Source of the DNA: Dehalococcoidia bacterium
GTDB lineage: Bacteria > Chloroflexota > Dehalococcoidia > SAR202 > UBA11138
DNA length: 5,674 nt
Reading direction: 5' to 3'
NCBI GenBank assembly: GCA_012270625.1
Contig: JAAXHZ010000249.1
Location: 1-5,674, forward strand
The notes beneath the pieces were generated by a model. That model did no database searches, had not been told where the DNA came from, and saw only the letters and a program-made list of their open reading frames with translations. The translations under genes and the position numbers were made by a program. Shown one piece after another: positions 1 through 5,674 of this stretch. The first letter of the stretch is position 1. The number at the start of each line of letters is the position of its first letter.

Positions 1-2240
1 CCAACCTGACAGGGTTGTACCTCAACTGGAACCAGTTGAGCGGCACGATTCCGACCAGGTTGGGCGACCTGACCAACCTGGAGCGACTGGAACTCCGCAG
101 CAATGAGTTGACGGGGGAGATACCTGCCGAGCTCGGCAATCTCCCCAATCTGACGTGGCTGGTGCTCGCCGAAAATCAGTTGACGGGGGAAGTGCCAGCA
201 TGGTTGGAGGATCTGACCAACTTGGAGAGACTATGGCTCTGGAACAACCAGTTGAGCGGGCCGATTCCAACACAACTCGGCAACCTCTCCAACCTGGAAC
301 TGCTGGAACTCGGCAGCAATGAGTTGACGGGGGAGATACCTGCCGAGCTCGGCAACCTCTCCAATCTGACGGTCCTCAACCTCAGCTGGAACCAGTTGAG
401 CGGCACGATTCCGACACAACTCGGCAACCTCTCAAACCTGGAACGGCTGTACCTCAGCGGAAATCAGTTGACGGGGGAAGTGCCGGCCTGGTTGGGGGAT
501 CTGACCAATCTGGAGCGGCTGAGTCTCTGGGGAAACCAGTTGAGCGGCACGATTCCGACAGAACTCGGCAACCCCTCCAACCTGACGACTCTGAACCTCG
601 GCGGCAACGACTTGAGCGGCACGATTCCACCCGAACTCGGCAGTCTCTCCAACCTGGAGTTTCTGGACCTCGGCGGCAACGACTTGAGCGGCACGATTCC
701 AACACAACTCGGCAACCTCTCCAATCTGACGACTCTGAACCTCTGGGCCAACCAGTTGACGGGGGAAGTGCCGGCTTGGTTGGGGGATCTGACCAACTTG
801 GAGCAGCTTCAACTCAACAACAATCAGTTGAGCGGCACGATTCCAACACAACTCGGCAACCTCTCCAACCTGACGACTCTGAACCTCTGGGGCAACCAGT
901 TGACGGGGGAAATACCAGCCTCGTTGGGGGATCTGACCAACTTGGAGCAGCTTCAACTCAACAACAATCAGTTGAGCGGCATGATCCCAACACAACTTGG
1001 CAACCTCTCCAACCTGACGACTCTGAACCTCTGGGGCAACCAGTTGACGGGGGAAATACCGCCACAACTTGGCAACCTCTCCAACCTGACCGTAATCGAA
1101 CTCAGCTGGAACCAGTTGAGCGGCACGATTCCGACAGAACTCGGCAACCTCTCCAACCTGACACGGTTGTACCTCAGTGGAAATCAGTTGACTGGATCGA
1201 TTCCAACCCAACTTGGCAGCCTCACCAACCTGACACGGCTGAATCTCTCGAACAACCAACTGGCAGGGGAGATCCCAGACAGCTTTATCGGGCTGACTGA
1301 GCTGGAATTCCTATACTCCTACAACAACCCGGGCCTCTGCGCTCCTGTCGATGACGCATTCCAAGCATGGCTCCAGAGTCTAGACACATTCCTCGGCAGC
1401 AGCTGCGCGCCAGTGGACTCCCAAGAGGATAGAGACGTGCTGGCCAAGCTCTACGACGCCACAGATGGCGCCAACTGGCAGAACAGCTCCAACTGGCTGA
1501 GCGAACGACCGATCAGGGAGTGGTACGGTGTCACAACTGACGCGAGCGGAGGGGTCAGCGGACTCCACCTCTGGGGCAACCGGCTGAGTGGGTCTATACC
1601 TCCAGAGATGGGTGATCTCTCCAATCTGACATGGCTGTGGCTCTCGAACAACCAGCTTAGCGGGCAGATACCGATGTCATTGGGCAGCCTCTCCATGCTG
1701 GAGAGTCTGTACCTCAGCGGGAACCAGCTAACAGGGTGCATACCGGATGAGCTGAGAGACGTGGAGTTCAACGACTTCGATTATGTCGGTCTTCCGTTCT
1801 GCGTGCCTGGCGTGCCTGGTCCCCCCAATGTAAGCATGCTCTGGGTGGGCGACCCTATGGTGAGGATCGACTCACCTATCCCTGTGACAGCCATATTCAG
1901 CGAGCCTGTGTTCGGATTTACCGTAGAGGACGTCAGTGTGGTCAACGGCTCCGTGAGCAGCTTCGACAGCAGCTACGACGGCTCAATCTACATATTCGAC
2001 GTGACGCCGAACGCCATTGGCGATGTGACCGTGGACATTGCGGGCGGCGTGGCTCAAGATGCCGACGGCAACGGCAACACTGCGGCTGTCCAGCTATCGC
2101 TGGGCATCCCATATGACGATGATGGCGACGGCGAGATCAACAGGGATGAGGTCATCACTGCAATCGGTGACTTCCTGTTCAGTGGCACCCTAATCAGGGA
2201 CCATGTCATAGAGCTCATCGGGCTCTTCCTGTTTGGCTGA
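1..2240 (+). CDS. Leucine-rich-repeat surface protein with Ig-like and EF-hand-like C-terminus (5' partial)
   Basis: The reading frame is open from the left edge, and codons 3-14 (N-L-T-G) already belong to a repeat, so the true start lies upstream and the TTG at 15 is not a real start. Residues here count from that TTG. Residues 6-437 are 18 LRRs of exactly 24 residues, of the N-x-L-(S/T)-G-x-(I/V)-P 'plant-type' class. A cysteine cap follows (C442 and C464). Residues about 472-517 form a second LRR N-cap (D-x-x-L-x-x-L-Y-x-A-T-x-G-x-x-W, then E-W-Y-G-V), followed by three more LRRs and C596. Residues about 605-697 look like a bacterial Ig-like domain (F-S-E-P-V-x-G-F, ending D-A-D-G-N-G-N). 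D701-x-D703-x-D705-G-x-I-x-x-x-E712 is a canonical calcium loop. The protein is probably extracellular and used for adhesion or protein binding; this is inferred, because the signal peptide lies outside the window. The stop is TGA at 2238. It converges with the ACT-GlnE gene. Confidence 0.93.
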   Translation, partial: NLTGLYLNWNQLSGTIPTRLGDLTNLERLELRSNELTGEIPAELGNLPNLTWLVLAENQLTGEVPAWLEDLTNLERLWLWNNQLSGPIPTQLGNLSNLELLELGSNELTGEIPAELGNLSNLTVLNLSWNQLSGTIPTQLGNLSNLERLYLSGNQLTGEVPAWLGDLTNLERLSLWGNQLSGTIPTELGNPSNLTTLNLGGNDLSGTIPPELGSLSNLEFLDLGGNDLSGTIPTQLGNLSNLTTLNLWANQLTGEVPAWLGDLTNLEQLQLNNNQLSGTIPTQLGNLSNLTTLNLWGNQLTGEIPASLGDLTNLEQLQLNNNQLSGMIPTQLGNLSNLTTLNLWGNQLTGEIPPQLGNLSNLTVIELSWNQLSGTIPTELGNLSNLTRLYLSGNQLTGSIPTQLGSLTNLTRLNLSNNQLAGEIPDSFIGLTELEFLYSYNNPGLCAPVDDAFQAWLQSLDTFLGSSCAPVDSQEDRDVLAKLYDATDGANWQNSSNWLSERPIREWYGVTTDASGGVSGLHLWGNRLSGSIPPEMGDLSNLTWLWLSNNQLSGQIPMSLGSLSMLESLYLSGNQLTGCIPDELRDVEFNDFDYVGLPFCVPGVPGPPNVSMLWVGDPMVRIDSPIPVTAIFSEPVFGFTVEDVSVVNGSVSSFDSSYDGSIYIFDVTPNAIGDVTVDIAGGVAQDADGNGNTAAVQLSLGIPYDDDGDGEINRDEVITAIGDFLFSGTLIRDHVIELIGLFLFG
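30..1325 (+). repeat. Array of 18 in-frame 72-bp LRR-coding repeats
   Basis: The LRR block is visible at the DNA level as 72-bp units starting at each conserved Asn codon (30, 102, 174 and so on), with no insertion or deletion over 18 units. Units tend to alternate between an L-T-G-E-(I/V)-P type followed by G-D-L-T-N-L-E and an L-S-G-T-I-P type followed by G-N-L-S-N-L-T, so much of the array also has a 144-bp period. Such similarity favours unequal recombination and copy-number change; that consequence is an inference. Confidence 0.9.
750..1037 (+). repeat. Two near-identical 144-bp double-LRR modules in tandem
   Basis: Positions 750-893 and 894-1037 align without gaps and differ at 8 of 144 bases by my hand count. 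Five of the differences are clustered in the codons for V-P-A-W versus I-P-A-S. This looks like the most recent duplication in the array, made as a pair of repeats and not a single one. Confidence 0.85.
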
Positions 2241-2517: not shown

Positions 2518-4752
2518 CTAAAGCAGTGCCGGGGGACGATGCTCGTCCCATAGGCTTCGAGCTGCCTCCATGTGCTCCGCTATGTGACTGCTCAACAGCC
2601 CTGGTGGTTCGACCGACAACCGGTGGGCCAGGTGGTGGAACTCTCTGGTCTCTTGAGGCGGGATGTTCAGGTCCGAGGCGTTGCCTCTGACCACGCGGAG
2701 CGCGTCCACCAATCCCAGCAGGAACCTGTACGACTCCCCTATTCTCCGAGCGAGGCTGCCGTCGAGGTGGCCGCCCGACTGGAGCGCGTCGAGGGCGGCC
2801 AGCGTGTTCGTCCGGCGCACACTCCGGTCTTGTCCGCGCGCGATCTGCCACGCCTGCACGCAGTACTCGATGTCGGCCATTCCGCCGGGGCTGAGCTTCG
2901 CGTTGACCGCGCCACGCTCGACCAGCTCCGAGGCCTGCCGTCGCCGCAGATGCTGAATGTTCTCGATGTCCAGCGGCTCGGCAGAGTAAACGAACGAGTC
3001 CCTGACTCGCATGACCTGTCTGCCGAGGTCCGCGTCTCCGGCCACCGGACGCATTCTTACGAGGGCCAGCCGCTCGAACTGACGCGCGTCCCCGTCGCGT
3101 CCGTAGTAGTCTTCGAGCGCGGCCAGCGACGACGCGAGAGCGCCCTTCGAGCCGTATGGCCGAAGCCTCATGTCAACCTCGAACACCCCCTGCTGTCGCG
3201 TCTCGAGCACCCGCAGAAACTCGCGGACGGCTTCACCGAAGAAAGTCGATGCGCGCGTCGGCTGTGGGCCGTCGGTCGATCCTTCAGCCTGATAGACGAA
3301 GATAAGCTCCAGGTCAGACCCGAAGCCCATGTCGGACCCTCCGAACTTACCCAGCGCGAAAACGGCCCATGCACACTCGGCGCCGTCGTCGAGGCGCGGA
3401 GCGCCGAACTGGGAGCGCATCGCGTCCACGCTGAGAGCGAACGCCTTCTCTACCACGACCTCGGCGAGCGTCGATAGCTCATCTCCGAACTGCTGCCGAT
3501 CGATCCTGTCGGTTATGTATCGCAGGTTGATCCTGAACATCTCCCTGTCTTTGAAGTCGTTCAAAGCCCTGACGCGCTCGCGGTGATCTGAGCGCTCCGA
3601 CAGCAGTGACTCTATCGAATCCTCCAGCTCGGATCGTGGGCAGCTGCGGTAGAGAGCGGGCATGTCCAGCAGCACCGGGAACAGGTTCTCGTGCTGGACT
3701 CTCAGGAACTCCTCCCAGAGGAAGCGGCTGGCGCCCATCATCTCAGCCAGAGTCTCCAGGACTCCCGGGGCCTCCAGGTCCTCGAATTCCGACGTCCAGT
3801 CCGGTCGGGACAGAAGCTGGTACGTCAGGAGGTTGAACTGCCGCAGGGCCTGACCTGGATCGGGAGCGGTGGGAAGCAGGTGGGTAAATTGCTTGATGAG
3901 CACGGCGGCGGCCCTGATCTGTTCGAGCCGACGTTCCGACTCGATCTTCTCGCCGGACGGCTCGGTAAGCCAGAAGGTGTCCCGCACCACCTCGCCGTCA
4001 GTTCGTATCCTGGACCTGAGAACGTTCACCCGAACGCTGGACAGCGCGATGCTGAAAGCGAACAGGAAGCCCGGCGTATCGACCGACGTAATCTCCAGCA
4101 GGGAGTGATCGTCTGAGGTGGCGCTGTCGGTAGAGATGTCCGCCGGCAGGTTCCCGGCAATCCAGCTTTCGGACGCCTGCATCGCGTGAGAGAAGCGCTC
4201 GATCACTTCGAGGCGAGCGGTGTCGAAGTTTCCTGCGGCGGCTTGACGGCCTGCCCGCCTGGCCTCCGTGGCAAATGCCTCCCAGTCGGGCAGCTGCTCA
4301 GATCGTGCCCTGACGCTGAACAGCATGACCGCCCATGGTGTGGAAGTCTGCGTATAGCGTCTGCGGGTAAATTTCCTGTAAAGAGCATCGGACCGTCCGC
4401 GTATCGGAGTACGGGGCAGGCTTTGCGCGCGCCGCCGCGACGGGCCCGCTGAGGTCGGTGTGGAGACGCCGTGGACGACGGTGAAGGTGTCCGCATGGAC
4501 GATGTCCAGGCCGTGGGCGGTGAGCAGCCCGCTCACGAGCGACAGCGTCCCGACCCGGTCGGCCAGACACACACCGATTCGCCACTCTCCAGCCGCGCCG
4601 TCTCGCAGTTCGATCTCAACATCCGACGTGGAGTTCACGGCGTCGAGCAGTCGCCAGACAAGCTCCAAGTCGTCCGGGTCCAGCTCGGACACGGCTCCAG
4701 GCCACTGCGCGCGGAGCGCATCCAGGGTTTCAGATGATGCGGGTGTCGTCAT
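2518..4752 (-). CDS. ACT-ACT-GlnE-type nucleotidyltransferase fusion, putative glutamine synthetase-modifying regulator
   Basis: The protein has 744 residues. Residues about 56-95 (L-A-D-R-V-G-T-L-S...H-G-L-D-I) look like an ACT domain, completed by about 140-165 after an Arg/Pro-rich insert. Residues about 217-265 (L-E-I-T-S-V-D-T-P-G-F-L) form a second ACT domain of the GlnD type. Residues about 320-580 match the GlnE catalytic family: L-G-K-F-G-G (467-472), G-S-D-L-E-L-I-F (478-485) and V-D-M-R-L-R-P-Y-G (526-534). The helical part follows, with K-L-S-P-G-G-M-A-D-I-E-Y (619-630) and N-T-L-A-A-L (649-654). Classical GlnE has about 950 residues, two nucleotidyltransferase halves (adenylylation and removal) and no ACT domains. 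GlnD has ACT domains but at its C-terminus. Here there is one catalytic half, and its usual D-x-D reads D480-x-E482. The likely role is nucleotidylation or de-nucleotidylation of glutamine synthetase (or PII), controlled by a bound ligand; this is inferred. The start is firm upstream because an in-frame TAG lies two codons before the ATG. No Shine-Dalgarno sequence is visible. Confidence 0.85.
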   Translation of the reverse strand: MTTPASSETLDALRAQWPGAVSELDPDDLELVWRLLDAVNSTSDVEIELRDGAAGEWRIGVCLADRVGTLSLVSGLLTAHGLDIVHADTFTVVHGVSTPTSAGPSRRRAQSLPRTPIRGRSDALYRKFTRRRYTQTSTPWAVMLFSVRARSEQLPDWEAFATEARRAGRQAAAGNFDTARLEVIERFSHAMQASESWIAGNLPADISTDSATSDDHSLLEITSVDTPGFLFAFSIALSSVRVNVLRSRIRTDGEVVRDTFWLTEPSGEKIESERRLEQIRAAAVLIKQFTHLLPTAPDPGQALRQFNLLTYQLLSRPDWTSEFEDLEAPGVLETLAEMMGASRFLWEEFLRVQHENLFPVLLDMPALYRSCPRSELEDSIESLLSERSDHRERVRALNDFKDREMFRINLRYITDRIDRQQFGDELSTLAEVVVEKAFALSVDAMRSQFGAPRLDDGAECAWAVFALGKFGGSDMGFGSDLELIFVYQAEGSTDGPQPTRASTFFGEAVREFLRVLETRQQGVFEVDMRLRPYGSKGALASSLAALEDYYGRDGDARQFERLALVRMRPVAGDADLGRQVMRVRDSFVYSAEPLDIENIQHLRRRQASELVERGAVNAKLSPGGMADIEYCVQAWQIARGQDRSVRRTNTLAALDALQSGGHLDGSLARRIGESYRFLLGLVDALRVVRGNASDLNIPPQETREFHHLAHRLSVEPPGLLSSHIAEHMEAARSLWDEHRPPALL
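4336..4467 (-). other. Arg/Pro-rich insert splitting the first ACT domain, containing repeat DNA
   Basis: Residues about 96-139 of the ACT-GlnE protein are low in hydrophobic residues and rich in Arg, Pro, Ser and Thr (for example P-S-R-R-R, L-P-R-T-P-I-R-G-R and F-T-R-R-R). They fall where ACT domains normally have a short turn between the strand A-D-T-F-T-V and the strand A-V-M-L-F-S-V. The DNA includes the dispersed repeat (4397-4421), a short AT-rich island at about 4367-4384 unlike the surrounding gene, and a GTCTGCG direct repeat (4346-4352 and 4359-4365). I infer an in-frame insertion, but its exact ends cannot be fixed from one sequence. Confidence 0.45.
4397..4421. repeat. Dispersed palindromic repeat, copy 1 (inside the ACT-GlnE gene)
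   Basis: These 25 bases match 4923-4947 at 23 positions in the same orientation. The core is GTATCGGAGTACGGGGCAGG. The hairpin arms are CCGCGTA and TACGGGG, with one mispair. On the coding (minus) strand it encodes S-L-P-R-T-P-I-R-G (residues 111-119) without breaking the frame. Confidence 0.75.
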
Positions 4753-4759
4753 GGTCTAA

Positions 4760-4783
4760 GAAAATTGCATAAGTGCAATTTTC
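4760..4783. promoter_or_regulatory. Perfect 10-bp-arm palindrome at the ACT-GlnE start (operator or leader hairpin)
   Basis: Arms GAAAATTGCA (4760-4769) and TGCAATTTTC (4774-4783) are exactly complementary around TAAG. The nearest arm ends 8 nt before the ATG of the ACT-GlnE gene. It lies where a Shine-Dalgarno sequence or a promoter -10 would be, and no recognisable ribosome binding site is present. It could be a dimeric repressor operator, or an RNA hairpin hiding the start codon. It is AT-rich within a GC-rich context. The binding protein is unknown. Confidence 0.6.
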
Positions 4784-4922
4784 GAGGAGTGAGTGGAGAG
4801 GAGCGAGAGTCTCCCCTGACCACCCCAATGGTGATCCATCTGGGACTTATGAAAATCTCTCATAGTCTGGGATGCTGGGCGTTGACCTTTACGATCATGA
4901 TAGCATGGTGGGTCGCACGGAA

Positions 4923-4947
4923 CCCCGTATCTGAGTACGGGGCAGGC
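4923..4947. repeat. Dispersed palindromic repeat, copy 2 (phosphodiesterase leader)
   Basis: CCCCGTA (4923-4929) and TACGGGG (4936-4942) form a perfect 7-bp stem around TCTGAG, followed by CAGGC. It matches 4397-4421 at 23 of 25 bases, and this copy has the perfect stem. It ends 11 bp before the start codon of the downstream gene, and its loop contains an in-frame TGA that bounds that gene's start. Confidence 0.75.
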
Positions 4948-4949
4948 GC

Positions 4950-4954
4950 GGAGG
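4950..4954 (+). promoter_or_regulatory. Shine-Dalgarno sequence of the phosphodiesterase gene
   Basis: GGAGG is followed by a 4-nt spacer (GGGT) and the ATG at 4959. The in-frame TGA at 4932-4934, with no start codon in between, makes 4959 the first possible start. The site lies just past the hairpin of the dispersed repeat, so folding of that hairpin could affect ribosome access. Confidence 0.65.
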
Positions 4955-4958
4955 GGGT

Positions 4959-5674
4959 ATGCCTGGAGTAGAAGCGCTGATAGAGGCGTTCGCAGACAGG
5001 AAGCTGCTGCGGCCTCGACACGATCTGCCGAACCTGGTGGACCTGGCGGGGGCGGTCGCCAGGCTGTGTGGCGTCGACCTCAAATTGTCGGGCCACGCCG
5101 AGGACATGGTCGATGCTATCGGGACGTCGGACCACCTGGTGCTCACCCTTGCCGATGGTGTGGGTATGAACATGGTGGAGATGCTGCCGGAGGACTCGTT
5201 TCTGCCCAGTCATCTGCAAAGCGAGATGCTGACGGTCTTTCCGACCACGACCGCGGTGGCGCTCACGTCGCTGACGACGGCGCAGTGGCCGTCCGAGCAC
5301 GCCGTCATGGGATGGTGGACGTACCTGCCCGACCTGAACGGGGTCGCGACCATCCTCCAGTACACAGACCGCAGCACTGGCGTGGACCTTGTCAAGCGTG
5401 GAATCGATCCTGAGCGGACGTTTCCGGTCAAGTCGGTCTGGCCGCGGATGAAACGAGACGCGCTGATCGTCGTCCCTGAGCGAATCAAGGACTCGGTCTA
5501 TTCGAGATACTTCAACGGAGGACTTGAAAGCGTCGGGTACAGGTCGCTCTCAGAGGCAGTCAACATAGTGACCGAGCGGGTGCTCGACGCGCGTGAGCCG
5601 ACCTTCACCTACCTGTACGTGCCGCGCGTGGACAGCCTCGCGCACCTGCACGGGATAGCCCGACCGGAAGTGAA
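4959..5674 (+). CDS. Alkaline-phosphatase-superfamily protein, type I phosphodiesterase/nucleotide pyrophosphatase type (3' partial)
   Basis: The frame is open from the ATG to the window edge, giving 238 complete codons; the C-terminal part is outside. The family hydrolyses phosphodiester or phosphate-ester bonds using two metal ions and a catalytic Thr or Ser. L-T-L-A-D66-G-V-G matches the first metal-binding Asp motif near the N-terminus. F-P-T-T-T98-A-V-A-L-T-S-L carries the expected nucleophile; T98 is my choice by alignment to the family's P-x-x-T-x pattern. W-P-S-E-H114-A-V-M-G-W corresponds to the family P-x-x-H-G-x-x-G, with Gly replaced by Ala. Y-L-Y-V-P-R-V-D225-S-L-A-H229-L-H-G is the second metal-site motif, again with Ala where G-H is usual. 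Family proteins of this kind run to about 350-450 residues, so a little over half is seen. There is no signal peptide, so it is probably cytoplasmic. The substrate cannot be told. Confidence 0.88.
   Translation, partial: MPGVEALIEAFADRKLLRPRHDLPNLVDLAGAVARLCGVDLKLSGHAEDMVDAIGTSDHLVLTLADGVGMNMVEMLPEDSFLPSHLQSEMLTVFPTTTAVALTSLTTAQWPSEHAVMGWWTYLPDLNGVATILQYTDRSTGVDLVKRGIDPERTFPVKSVWPRMKRDALIVVPERIKDSVYSRYFNGGLESVGYRSLSEAVNIVTERVLDAREPTFTYLYVPRVDSLAHLHGIARPEV

Follow-up and report, generated by a model that had tools for sequence, protein, structure and literature searches.

Among regulatory systems built in layers, the GlnD–PII–GlnE cascade is a textbook case. In the E. coli GlnE enzyme, AMP is attached by the C-terminal half and taken off by the N-terminal half (PMC12409994). 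A sequence-only reading of the DNA analysed here had started from the enteric scheme, in which the glutamine signal passes via GlnD and PII to GlnE; this premise was incomplete, since AT/AR is itself allosterically regulated by glutamine, as stated in PMC5448240. Direct glutamine sensing by GlnE therefore has a precedent; what would be new is sensing through an ACT pair of the GlnD type. Our search of the open-licence literature (with subscription papers mostly outside its scope) found no paper on GlnE together with an ACT domain, and the lineage-centred open-licence search yielded nothing on ACT-GlnE among the matches listed. Sequence databases do hold such proteins, some of them named glutamate-ammonia-ligase adenylyltransferase or ACT domain-containing protein among the matches listed.

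The window, by which we mean the whole 5,674-nucleotide stretch of Dehalococcoidia DNA that was analysed, encodes a protein that joins two GlnD-homologous ACT domains to a single nucleotidyltransferase head of the GlnE type, whose acidic residues are conserved (Table 1). Two ACT-like domains followed by a single GlnE-type head, as the sequence-only reading had it, were confirmed, with the bounds now as tabulated. PF03710 matched at 157.4 bits (curated cut-off 24) and PF01842 (ACT) at 38 bits (cut-off 27), in the profile search that the sequence-only reading had called for, and the expectation that the N-terminal part folds as ACT domains also held, the first domain showing the ACT fold and PF01842 matching the second. 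Because the 744 residues contain one PF03710 stretch, and not the two heads per chain of GlnE, we speak of a GlnE-type head and not of a bifunctional GlnE; the protein also scored below the NCBIfam bifunctional-GlnE equivalog cut-offs (206.8 versus 487, 182 versus 625 and 153.1 versus 724 bits). In the 59 aligned sequences, all of which share the tabulated acidic catalytic residues, most of the GK-GG loop is conserved and E replaces the second D, giving D-x-E where the canonical GlnE heads that we saw have D-x-D; D480/E482 would be a putative metal site. The protein thus differs from GlnE in having one head instead of two, two ACT domains in front, the D-x-E motif and a head of separate lineage.

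Table 1. Features of the ACT-ACT-GlnE locus (positions in the window).
Feature	Position	Strand	Evidence
ACT-ACT-GlnE protein (single-headed GlnE-type nucleotidyltransferase), 744 aa	2518..4752	(-)	
ACT1, residues ~46-172, low-confidence insert within	4237..4617	(-)	
ACT2, residues ~204-295, DTPGFL turn, nearest to the second ACT of GlnD	3868..4143	(-)	PF01842 218-281
GlnE-type head, residues ~297-741, catalytic fold and helical domain	2530..3864	(-)	
Metal-site-type motif D480-L-E482	3307..3315	(-)	D and E invariant in 59/59
Third acidic residue D527 (FEVDMRLRP)	3172..3174	(-)	invariant in 59/59
Divergent intergenic region, 206 bp, common to the ACT-GlnE and phosphodiesterase genes	4753..4958	(.)	
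NPP-type phosphodiesterase (PF01663), cut by the window end	4959..5674	(+)	PF01663 E 4.5e-10

The ACT part of the window protein has the GlnD ACT pair as its best sequence match, and the profile PRK03381 covers both ACT domains and PRK05092 the second. Unlike in GlnD, where the pair is C-terminal, the ACT domains are N-terminal, the head is of the GlnE type and the profile search found no HD domain in the 744 residues; the GlnD order of NT head, HD and ACT pair is consequently not present, and TIGR01693 reached 42.3 bits against a cut-off of 519.4. With hhalign, the second ACT aligned to residues 811–871 of E. coli GlnD at a probability of only 24% (E 8e-4) and the first was not recovered. The structural neighbours of the pair include the ACT domains of aspartate kinase and IlvA, and GlnD was absent among the matches listed from Foldseek and a second structure comparison, an absence that carries no weight. 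The two domains are probable amino-acid sensors. Elsewhere in the window, positions 3–2240 (+) encode a large leucine-rich-repeat protein with its 5′ end cut, which has 19 LRR_1 stretches and an Ig-like domain (Big_12) and ends in an Asp-rich stretch that weakly resembles EF hands. Upstream of ACT-GlnE, separated from its start codon by 7 bp, is a perfect inverted repeat of 24 bp (4760–4783; 10-bp arms, 4-base loop); as a conserved operator it was discarded, with no match in the 146 loci searched.

ACT-ACT-GlnE is a conserved family and a real architecture. Of 7994 candidates scored, 683 were homologues at E ≤ 1e-3, the best 120 of which were inspected, and full-length homologues on many independent contigs rule out a chance fusion or frame error. 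Among the matches listed, a single-headed form, mostly of ~680–840 aa (start codons being uncertain), occurs in Dehalococcoidia and Desulfuromonadales, and a two-headed form of ~1200–1320 aa, consisting of a canonical head, ACT-ACT and a second head, is found in Planctomycetes and in Chloroflexi of the Anaerolineae type, some of whose records carry only the title Chloroflexi. A canonical GlnE head is fused to ACT-ACT-head in 15 two-headed forms. One ACT-GlnE frame (L035, 1477–4611) has an N-terminal extension of ~300 residues that no Pfam family matches, possibly from an overextended start.

Heads were cut after dropping duplicates (L033, L042), cut copies (L011, L030, L031), a split one (L027), short ones (L049, L050) and L044, whose frame was lost through ORF choice. 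From the resulting 72 heads, both L116 heads (the L032 gene again) and that of L013, which is truncated, were left out. In the tree of the 69 others, with conventional heads from seven proteins only, a single long branch (length 1.36; support 100/100) separated the 40 ACT-linked heads (25 from single-headed and 15 from fused proteins) from the fused N heads and from both the N and the C heads of conventional GlnE. Judged from this tree, the ACT heads are a third lineage, separate from transferring and removing heads; nearest to the window protein were those of genomes G001 and G018. Assigning the ACT heads to the transferring or the removing type by phylogeny was tried and gave no decision, with AU p values of 0.372 for their joining the conventional C heads and 0.13 for their joining the fused N heads, and with the best tree joining them to the conventional N heads at a support of only 66/50. 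Both phmmer and Foldseek ranked the E. coli removing half first.

The survey of glnA, glnB, glnD and glnE that the sequence-only reading had called for was run in relatives, with a sample of 393 genomes from the same class as G001 (Dehalococcoidia by title). ACT-GlnE was present in 17, PF03710 was confined to exactly these, and that search found no conventional GlnE across the 393. Adding G018 gave 18 Dehalococcoidia carriers (the G390 copy being in pieces), of which 10 have GlnD at scores below the NCBIfam cut-off, with the N- and C-terminal parts in one frame in G007, G075, G336, G360, G292, G152, G096, G321 and G398 and only the C-terminal part in G390. In the other eight (G001, G018, G378, G353, G097, G035, G076, G055), GlnD was not found: PF08335 matched only the ACT-GlnE protein, and TIGR01693 matched its ACT part and a middle stretch of another frame. 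These second frames, seen in all eight, are ~470–610 aa long, match within model positions 310–565 and do not include the catalytic N-terminus; one more weak TIGR01693 stretch was seen in G076. Since carriers are mostly metagenome bins without stated completeness, such absences may be gaps.

PII genes were clear in G001 and G018, each with one PF03710 match; G035 gave no PII match and G097 and G076 only weak ones. Residue 51, the site uridylylated in E. coli, is V, V, Y, V and A in G001, G018, G378, G353 and G055 respectively, so that four of the five PII proteins read in GlnD-less Dehalococcoidia lack the uridylylated tyrosine; Tyr51 is present in all nine glnD-adjacent PII proteins, and two further copies in GlnD-positive Dehalococcoidia have one Y and one F. 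Altered T-loops without Tyr51 were seen in the PII of GlnD-less Dehalococcoidia at L119, L120, L122 and L123. Loss of Tyr51 is no strict mark of GlnD loss, as G378, G008 and G028 keep it without GlnD matches. Outside the class sample, eight Chloroflexi carriers (G008, G011, G016, G021, G022, G028, G029, G030) have the two-headed form, except G011 and G030, where ACT-GlnE is cut at contig ends. None of the eight yielded GlnD beyond ACT-GlnE itself and short middle stretches, and PII was absent (G011, G021, G029) or weak (G016, G022, G030) in six, G008 and G028 having a clear PII with Tyr51. GlnD and PII are present in the four Planctomycetes surveyed (G012, G014, G017, G026); four Desulfuromonadales (G002, G003, G005, G015) have both of these and also a conventional GlnE with two heads. 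Among nine Desulfuromonadales loci (L002–L006, L009, L010, L013, L015), eight come from genomes with the single-headed ACT-GlnE in addition to a conventional two-headed GlnE, which was not seen in G013 (L013).

The survey thus divided in its bearing on the proposal that the modifying enzyme bypasses PII and GlnD. The relatives' genomes G001 and G018, with a single PF03710 match, no GlnD found, a PII without Tyr51 and the GS tyrosine kept, support a shortcut without GlnD or uridylylated PII in the window's lineage, and in 8 of the 18 Dehalococcoidia carriers neither GlnD nor a conventional GlnE was found. The eight Chloroflexi carriers from outside the class sample, none with GlnD found and six with PII absent or weak, also speak for it. 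However, the 10 carriers that keep GlnD, and the Desulfuromonadales that keep a normal GlnE, mean that the shortcut is not general and applies to some branches only.

To look at glutamine synthetase (GS) as the target, one long GS was taken from 31 of the 33 surveyed carrier genomes (all but G003 and G011). The GSI-beta-type insertion is present in 30, the G008 fragment ending short of it, and 30 have Tyr at the column that aligns with E. coli Tyr397 (398 when Met is counted), the G321 sequence being truncated there. Second, short GS proteins have Tyr at this column in one of nine. In a control set of 20 GS genes, all taken from Dehalococcoidia in which no GlnE of any kind was found, there were 15 Tyr and 5 Phe, so the tyrosine is weak evidence and serves poorly as a test of coevolution; the within-class contrast (16/16 versus 15/20) was borderline at a Fisher p of 0.053 that ignores relatedness. 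GSI-beta presence was likewise discarded as a marker, being unspecific: 303 of 393 genomes match a GSI-beta query at E ≤ 1e-60, the weaker of which may be short GS. On a gene-neighbour map of 50 loci, which include many short ones and two duplicates, glnA adjoins the ACT-GlnE gene at L016 with one ORF between, and the ammonium transporter gene amtB lies one to two ORFs away at L006, L015, L022, L024 and L029. Beyond amtB, the conserved Desulfuromonadales neighbours (SDR, POR, GAPDH) offered no functional lead.

The divergent neighbour in the window is an NPP-type phosphodiesterase, whose family occurs in 16 of the 17 carrier genomes and in 66 of the 376 others (Fisher p 5e-11, relatedness ignored). 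By match coordinates it is divergent within 700 bp of ACT-GlnE in 10 of the 17 and within 1.4 kb in 12; it shares the contig in 13, including G360, where it is convergent at 5.3 kb, lies on another contig in three and was not found in G055. The divergent pair is also present in G018. At E ≤ 1e-5 the phosphodiesterase was not found in nine Desulfuromonadales nor in 12 further Planctomycetes and Chloroflexi carriers. Distant relatives (27–30% identity) occur in seven Anaerolineae-type genomes, on contigs other than that of the carrier gene, and one (28%) in G032, which has conventional GlnE only. The 66 genomes with the phosphodiesterase and without ACT-GlnE rule out an obligate pairing; eight of these loci were opened, and none of ten neighbour proteins scanned from seven of them was GlnE-type or plainly of nitrogen control.

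In alignment numbering, D79, D238 and H242 are invariant in ten phosphodiesterase sequences, and the nine long enough to cover D280, H281 and H397 all share these as well; the six residues are presumably the metal ligands of NPP chemistry. A model of the L001 copy (nine aligned sequences; pLDDT 77.1) matched ENPP6, ENPP5, phosphonoacetate hydrolase and Xac NPP at query TM ~0.5–0.6, with snake venom phosphodiesterase at rank 21. The protein therefore resembles NPP-type phosphodiesterases in PF01663, in the NPP-family structures at the top and in the invariant D/H set, and differs in that the window copy has no signal sequence visible by eye and adjoins a GlnE-type gene. With one head and no second PF03710, Dehalococcoidia carriers miss an AMP-removing partner, for which the phosphodiesterase is a candidate, and it could replace the missing head; a dedicated cellular hydrolytic eraser of GS-AMP would, to our knowledge, be new. 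When AMPylation was discovered, the enzyme that freed AMP from adenylylated GS was snake venom phosphodiesterase (PMC12409994), which belongs to the same broad family as the window's neighbour. A two-gene reversible switch free of PII and GlnD can be envisaged on this basis, in which ACT-GlnE would write AMP on GS at high glutamine and the phosphodiesterase would erase it by hydrolysis. We regard this as tentative and on balance doubtful, the family being common without ACT-GlnE and missing from the G055 matches.

Of the readings weighed, the best is that ACT-ACT-GlnE is a GS-inactivating enzyme with a built-in sensor, which we hold to be somewhat more likely than not. The ACT pair would bind glutamine and so turn the head on; the head would then move AMP from ATP onto the conserved tyrosine of GSI-beta GS, lowering GS activity when nitrogen is plentiful, and in the window's lineage neither GlnD nor uridylylated PII would be required. 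A removing head on its own would have no AMP to take off, so where this head is the sole GlnE of a genome it must at least be capable of transfer. Nevertheless, ACT domains bind several amino acids, and the aspartate kinase and IlvA neighbours would fit a pair that binds another amino acid or only aids assembly, with PII binding driving the head; PII is clear in G001 and G018, and 10 of the 18 Dehalococcoidia carriers keep GlnD. Against this stand the GlnD ACT pair as best sequence match and the several carriers with no PII or only weak PII matches, so that we hold it to be unlikely, if the least so of the rivals.

A sensor built in with a target other than GS, the head modifying PII or another protein, would suit the four Desulfuromonadales in which ACT-GlnE stands beside a complete GlnE/GlnD/PII set and GS is already served, as well as the separate lineage of the head and its D-x-E motif. 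It fits poorly with the Dehalococcoidia carriers, which keep the GS tyrosine and in which no other GlnE was found, with the two-headed forms of Planctomycetes and Anaerolineae-type Chloroflexi, where the head shares a chain with a canonical GlnE head, and, for PII as the target, with G035, which lacks a PII match; we consider it improbable. A single head that removes AMP, or that works both ways and reverses itself with phosphate so that no second enzyme is needed, agrees with the first rank of the E. coli removing half and with the placement beside conventional N heads in the best tree (66/50); to this reading we give still less credence. A decayed, inactive relic, for which the D-x-E in place of D-x-D might speak, is very hard to reconcile with acidic residues invariant in all aligned sequences and with full-length open frames on many contigs.

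With the built-in sensor as the preferred reading, a GlnD-type sensor placed directly on a GlnE-type writer shows how the cascade can be shortened, and in some branches GlnD, the tyrosine of PII and a removing head all appear to be missing. The ACT-GlnE lineage is a natural test of what PII contributes to glutamine sensing and, if the phosphodiesterase is the eraser, it would reveal a new way of reversing protein AMPylation in bacteria.
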